Origin: Isoetes taiwanensis
Lineage: Eukaryota > Streptophyta > Lycopodiopsida > Isoetales > Isoetaceae
DNA: 64,000 nt
Reading direction: 5' to 3'
NCBI GenBank assembly: GCA_021234155.1
Contig: JAJEKV010000071.1
Span: forward strand, 5,206,483 to 5,270,482
In this document: one piece after another, positions 38,224 to 39,257 of the stretch
Numbering within the stretch: position 1 is the stretch's first letter
Layout of the letters: each line of letters opens with the position of its first letter
Notes under the pieces: generated by a model
Seen by the model: the letters and a program-made list of their open reading frames with translations, nothing else
What the model was told of the DNA's origin: nothing
The model's database searches: none
Translations under genes and position numbers: made by a program

Positions 38224-39257
38224 ATGGAGCAGCCAGACCGAGCTTTTGCCTTCACCAAGTTTTACCCCTCGCCTAACCATGAGGAAGATCCCGATGACCT
38301 CATTAGAACTGAGGCCCAAAGAATTATGCACCTGGCTAGGTTAGAAGACCTCCAGCAAATAGCTAGTGGCCTCCCAGAAGTGCGTGCCAACCATTTTTAC
38401 TACCTTGGTAGAGGCCATGTGCTTATCTGCATGGACCACTACAACCTTCCTCCGTTCCATTGGAATGCTGAGTCAAATAGCTTCATTTTCGAGAATGCAC
38501 TACCTAGCTTCACACAAGACCGCATAGACGTCGTGCAAGCTGACATGCGAGCTTACCCGGACCGGTACCATACGGAGATTGCCAGGCGGATACAAGTGCG
38601 CCAGGACAAGGAAGCCCGGGATGCTGAGAGAGAGAGGCTCCGTAAGGCAGCGGAGGATGCCCAAACGCAGCAGGGCGGGGTTTAGAATGTCGAGCAGCAA
38701 GAGGATCAGCATGTGAGCCAGGAAGGAGATCAGAATCCTGTTGTCCCAGATAAGGAGGAGCGGTGGGGTAATAGGAAGAGGAAGCATACGAAGCCCACAC
38801 GGGGGGGCGTCAATTACAAGACCCGGCTTCAGAAGGATGCCCAAATTGGAAAGAACACGTCGGCTCAGTGTCGGGAACAGATTGTGCAGCGGGCGAAACA
38901 TCCCTCGACCGGCGGGAAGTCCTTGCGATTGCTCCAGGCAACTGTCAAGCCAAAAGGAAGCCCCATAGGTTCCGACTGGGCACAGTAGCTCTTCGCGAGA
39001 TACGTAAGTATCAGAAGACTACTGAGCCATTGATACGTCGGCTACCTTTTTAGCGACTTGTCCGGGAGATTGCCCAAGAATTTAAGACCGATCTGAGGTT
39101 TCAGGCCTTTGCTATCCTCGCACTCCAGGAGGCTGCCAAGGCTTACCTCATAGAGATTTTGAGTGACGCCAACCTCTGCGCCATCCATGCAAAGTGGGTT
39201 ACCATAATGCCCAAGGATATCCAGCTCGCAAGAAGGATCCGAGGGGAGTTTCGGTGA
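38224..39257 (+). pseudogene. Novel domain fused to a histone H3-like protein
   Basis: The first canonical ATG is at 38224. About 150 residues of an unknown domain follow (HFYYLGRGHVLICMDHYNLPP is typical), with a charged helix (ARDAERERLRKAAED). A TAG at 38683-38685 interrupts a basic linker. The same frame then gives [15 protein letters not shown], resembling the H3 tail around RKSTGGKAPRKQLAT. After one frameshift near 38945 the H3 fold follows: [19 protein letters not shown], a TAG inside [37 protein letters not shown] and a TGA at 39255-39257. The C-terminal part is canonical H3-like, not CENH3-like, at this loop. Both TAG stops could be CAG changed by C-to-T. It is element A cargo, in sense with gag-pol. 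Confidence 0.8.

Follow-up and report, generated by a model that had tools for sequence, protein, structure and literature searches.

A broken plus-strand coding region at 38224-39257, which couples an orphan stretch of about 150 residues to the core of a histone H3, was found inside a large retrotransposon of Isoetes taiwanensis. All positions refer to the window, the whole stretch of 64,000 nucleotides that was analysed. The outer element is a Ty3/gypsy chromovirus with 1.6-kb LTRs, spanning 13135-53780 and lying in the same orientation as the chimera, as had been noted in the first-pass annotation. On the sense strand the order is the chimera, a second orphan frame (ORF2) and gag-pol with its chromodomain. 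The features are as follows.

13135-14737, plus strand: 5' LTR of the outer element, with ACCAA directly before it (13130-13134) and the primer-binding-like TGGTATCAGAGCC directly after it
21279-32779, plus strand: nested element whose LTRs (21279-22993 and 31047-32779) are related to the outer LTRs; target-site duplication GCTTC
38224-38682, plus strand: N-terminal part of the chimeric frame, 153 codons (translation, codon-position test; Pfam and protein searches null)
38686-38898, plus strand: basic linker in the frame of the N-terminal part (translation; codon-position test together with the tail-like segment)
38899-38949, plus strand: H3 tail-like segment of 17 residues in the frame of the linker, register to H3 uncertain (translation, alignment)
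38958-39257, plus strand: H3 core, K37 to E133, with an altered C-terminus and TGA (Pfam, PDB match, alignment, change-count test)
39520-40508, plus strand: ORF2, which changes frame near 39900 and is interrupted by the copia insertion
40509-45524, minus strand: nested young Ty1/copia element (Pfam); target-site duplication GGATC, LTRs 99.42% identical
46115-46525, plus strand: open stretch on the far side of the copia insertion that may be the remainder of ORF2 (codon-position test)
47240-51511, plus strand: gag-pol of the outer element with the chromodomain at its end (Pfam, frame analysis)
52176-53780, plus strand: 3' LTR of the outer element, with a purine-rich tract directly before it and ACCAA directly after it (53781-53785)

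The outer LTRs start with TG and end with CA, and the ACCAA on both flanks is a 5-base target-site duplication. We take the primer-binding-like sequence to be of the tRNA-Met type. Gag-pol lies in a single frame of 4.27 kb that is interrupted by stops at 49403, 49880 and 50582, and its Pfam matches, including Retrotrans_gag, RVP_2, RVT_1, Integrase_H2C2 and Chromo (2.4e-07), follow the order gag, protease, RT, integrase and chromodomain. No match to RNase H or to the rve core of the outer element was obtained in the pieces scanned with Pfam. The aromatic residues of the chromodomain were placed by alignment to an HP1 chromodomain. W45 is kept in this alignment, and I and L are found at the places of Y24 and Y48, so that two of the three cage aromatics are lost. 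This pattern is that of group II plant chromodomains, which are defined by the presence of W45 and the loss of Y24 and usually of Y48, and whose activity and role are described as little known (PMC3350952). Since the available text of that source says that group II chromodomains are known only from plant elements, the outer element is called plant-type here.

The outer element is flanked by minus-strand Ty3 pieces, namely a reverse transcriptase at 54023-54385 (RVT_1, 3.8e-15) and an RNase H at 12787-13215 (RT_RNaseH, 2.2e-09), and the stretches 12787-13134 and 53786-54831 belong to a decayed Ty3 element on the minus strand into which the outer one inserted. Several other repeats were observed. 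Transposase pieces of a pogo-like DNA transposon (DDE_1, HTH_psq, HTH_Tnp_Tc5 and CENP-B_N) lie on the minus strand at 5926-7306, and two tandem duplication pairs of about 545 and about 570 bases occupy 55685-56770 and 57489-58631. Upstream of the chimera, at 36449-38070, a unit of about 580 bases is present in two to three tandem copies, and short minus-strand open frames and a TATA-like sequence were seen there by eye. Within the inner element, a fragment at 26104-26355 matches the 3' region and the LTR start of the outer element. Rfam and tRNA scans of the 64-kb window gave no matches.

The H3 part of the chimera was confirmed. In an alignment to H3, 97 plus-strand codons (38958-39248) match K37 to E133 without a gap. 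The Pfam Histone profile matched the H3 core with an E value of 4.1e-39, far beyond chance, and the best of the 177 PDB sequences matched was H3.3 (1.5e-47). The H3 fold is also supported by the 80 of 97 core residues that are as in H3.3 or H3.1; 17 differ from canonical H3, a stop included. Both FKTDLRFQ and the second motif of 12 residues, which had been read from the letters in the first pass, are present in the plus-strand core, and the core is free of introns. A TAG at 39051-39053 stands at the place of Gln68 in H3, and the core region ends with a TGA at 39255-39257. Centromeric H3 (CENH3) has a diverged core and a longer loop 1. This identity was rejected because the core is canonical in character and aligns with canonical H3 without gaps.

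The chimeric frame that begins at 38224 is closed by a TAG at 38683-38685 and is then open through the linker and the tail-like segment to 38985, and the H3 core sits in a different frame from the tail-like segment. The chimera thus has three breaks: the TAG after the N-terminal part, the frame change between tail and core, and the TAG at Gln68. The single fusion frame that had been proposed was therefore rejected, the present copy having two stops and one frame change. The basic linker and the tail-like segment with PSTGGK are present as described in the first pass. The segment reads AKHPSTGGK, which lacks the ARKS context of K9; neither an intact open H3 frame nor a modifiable ARTKQTARKS tail was found in the chimera. 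On inspection by eye, STGGK, R17 and A21-T22 follow the order of residues 10-22 of H3, and the tail from about T22 to K37 is missing. The register of this short segment is uncertain, since its placement changed between the strict and the lenient alignment.

The N-terminal part, predicted in the first pass to be a novel domain of about 150 residues, comprises 153 residues with no Pfam match. When it was searched together with the linker, none of the 200 candidates scored in a database of 5.8 billion proteins reached an E value of 10 or below; the search requires shared 5-residue words and so misses distant relatives. When the full-length chimera was used as the query, 7965 candidates with the most shared words were scored, and 6447 of them had E values up to 0.001. 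Among the best 120 of these 6447, no aligned piece starts before query residue 155 (244 pieces, 17 of which start before residue 200), and these 120 therefore share nothing with the N-terminal part. Pattern searches in collections of viral and prokaryote contigs, which are without plant genomes, gave 2 and 23 matches, respectively, and no confirmed relative. AlphaFold, run with no alignment supplied, modelled the N-terminal part with a mean pLDDT of 50.1. Direct comparison with ORF2 showed no likeness.

The spread of GC content among codon positions was 0.26 for the N-terminal part, 0.25 for the linker with the tail-like segment and 0.18 for the H3 core. These values were reached by 0, 1 and about 15, respectively, of 281 controls, which were equal-length stretches of the non-coding interior that overlap and hence are not independent. 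By this measure, coding character extends in a single frame over the N-terminal part and the linker with tail, and the H3 core is borderline. The codon-usage score of the N-terminal frame (-0.055) was the best of its six frames and lay inside the distribution of scores for 198 non-coding frames, whose 95th percentile was -0.008. As for length, the N-terminal open frame alone is unremarkable, since an open stretch of 172 codons lies antisense to the chimera at 38503-39018 on the minus strand; the latter is taken as a chance product of GC-rich, coding-like sequence. The continuity of the codon-position signal from the N-terminal part into the linker gives the join the look of genuine coding sequence. 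An assembly error could have produced the join in a repeat-rich region with four related LTRs, but the coding-like frame that the N-terminal part, the linker and the tail-like segment share across the join, and the matching target-site duplications of three nested insertions, make such an error highly improbable.

ORF2 gave a strong codon-position signal, with none of the 281 controls reaching the value of any of its three stretches. It had no Pfam match, and no relative was found among 1424 candidates in a 5-residue-word search. Between the chimera and ORF2 (39258-39520) there are TATA-like stretches, GGCCCATTAGGGTTT and a pyrimidine-rich leader before ATGGCT, features which in our judgement resemble a plant promoter and 5' leader. 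From these letters, ORF2 may have its own promoter.

The K2P divergence between LTRs was 0.0468 for the outer element and 0.0985 for the nested inner element. The differences between the outer LTRs were unevenly spread, with 14 in the 800 columns of the first half and 58 in the 795 columns of the second. The order of the two values is wrong for nesting, because the LTRs of the inner element are more diverged than those of the element that contains it. For both reasons LTR divergence was rejected as a simple clock, and the pattern suggests that gene conversion or recombination between members of the family may lie behind it. The outer LTRs showed 49 transitions, 18 at CHG and 8 at CG sites, which account for 126 and 124, respectively, of 787 cytosines. 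Changes at CHG sites were thus above expectation, as deamination of methylated DNA would give.

To set an expectation for the number of changes in the H3 core, the mean LTR K2P of 0.0468 was used with half assigned to each lineage, and a doubled rate served as the second bound. Residues 104 and 105, which by eye resemble a compensating pair of single-base indels, were excluded, leaving 15 core changes to be tested. While 4.7 changes were expected since insertion, 15 were observed, and none of 4000 simulations reached this number. At the doubled rate the excess is weak (mean of 9.1 changes expected, P 0.03). In a conservative-replacement test on the H3 core the fraction was 0.11, and the changes were not significantly milder than random. 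Because the core changes exceed the LTR expectation, the H3 part had probably left the canonical sequence before the present copy landed. Alternatively, a diverged host H3 variant could have been the donor, which would account for the changes without relaxed constraint.

The first-pass annotation had proposed that a retrotransposon carried its own H3-like protein, possibly marking or mimicking the chromatin at its integration site, with passive cargo as the alternative. The part that stands is that H3-derived sequence is carried in sense and joined to an orphan stretch; a role in marking or mimicry is not supported by a copy that is broken in three places. A related possibility is that the element lineage once encoded a working fusion, whose H3-like end would have entered nucleosomes or bound chaperones or readers and so steered integration or silencing, the present copy being a dead descendant. 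The chimera lies in sense with gag-pol, its join is coding-like in a single frame, most of the H3 fold is kept, and a chromodomain is present within the same element. The frame may also have been open at insertion, as gag-pol may have been, which now has three stops. However, the core changes in excess of the LTR expectation, the tail without the ARKS context of K9 and the group II chromodomain, which retains one of three cage aromatics, argue against both the marking role and a working fusion, and the N-terminal part of the latter has no relative among the candidates scored. We therefore consider a formerly working fusion unlikely. It is likewise unlikely that this was a chromovirus lineage with a histone of its own, in which a new domain-H3 fusion would have been built into nucleosomes at integration sites or have competed for them; if this were true, a chromodomain integrase and a histone would have come from one and the same element.

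H3-derived coding sequences inside mobile elements have been described in fungi. In Pyrenophora tritici-repentis, an H3-like gene (H3L) with a changed tail and changed helices lies on a hAT element beside an ORF of unknown function (PMC3538342), and the H3 copies on hAT elements of Pseudocercospora fijiensis are inactivated and bear marks of having been taken from a transcript or retrocopy (PMC6710886). The fungal carriers are, as far as these sources describe them, DNA transposons with terminal inverted repeats, whereas the carrier here is an LTR retrotransposon and its H3 is joined to an orphan stretch. The published captures on hAT elements, and the patchwork interior of the outer element with its two nested elements and tandem repeats, would fit a chimera that was brought in by another mobile element of the Helitron, Pack-MULE or hAT type inserting into the chromovirus. 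However, a search for inverted arms of at least 8 exact bases with a 5-10 base duplication, as expected of hAT-type terminal inverted repeats with their target-site duplication, gave none around the H3 segment, where shuffling predicts 0.24, and Pfam detected no hAT domain among the window proteins scanned. The arm search covers exact arms; imperfect ones would escape it, and Helitrons leave no such marks. On balance, arrival by another carrier appears improbable.

The passive-cargo alternative fits best with the frame breaks and with core changes beyond the mean LTR divergence. We propose that the broken frame of about 150 orphan residues and H3 in a nested chromovirus is likely to be decaying cargo captured from the host and not a chromatin tool. 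Gag-pol has kept one frame despite its stops, in contrast to the chimera, and this is counted in favor of cargo, as are, by analogy, the captured and drifted or inactivated H3 copies published for hAT elements. An H3 coding sequence without introns, joined to an orphan coding sequence, would have been taken up by the large chromovirus. Since the H3 part has no intron, the uptake probably passed through RNA during reverse transcription. Transduction and template switching have been reviewed as routes by which plant LTR retrotransposons capture sequence, and 5' transduction is given as unreported in plants in the available text of that review (PMC13317346). Template switching is likelier on this basis, because the cargo lies before gag. 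At the time of the element's transposition, a single open frame probably ran through the N-terminal part, the linker and the tail-like segment. The H3 part, no longer constrained as a working H3 is, would have drifted in part before landing and would have decayed further since then in its position before gag.

Extra ORFs are known from other plant Ty3/gypsy elements. Large elements of Phalaenopsis, which are related to Tat/Ogre and occur in many copies, carry an AlkB-type ORF with activity in vitro (PMC9289625), and they resemble the present case in being large plant Ty3/gypsy elements with an extra ORF of host-like origin. By the description in that source they differ from it, as the element here is a chromovirus seen in one copy, with a broken frame and a histone fold. 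The same paper screened 121 angiosperm genomes for extra domains in plant Ty3 elements, and its available text names no histone. The outer element shares with the group II plant chromoviruses gag-pol followed by a chromodomain with W45 and without Y24 and Y48, and the 5-base target-site duplication; the account of that group in the available text of PMC3350952 includes neither a histone nor two orphan frames before gag. No histone-bearing LTR retrotransposon was found in the literature searched, which consisted of titles and abstract openings with subscription journals mostly outside its reach.

Capture of H3 by hAT elements of fungi is thus known, and an H3-derived C-terminus on an orphan protein in a chromodomain LTR retrotransposon would be a new setting. 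This one broken copy demonstrates no more than that a decayed histone gene can reside in an element of this kind. It suggests that large plant-type elements can pick up chromatin genes, and if intact copies exist, they would raise directly the question of whether a retrotransposon supplies its own chromatin component.
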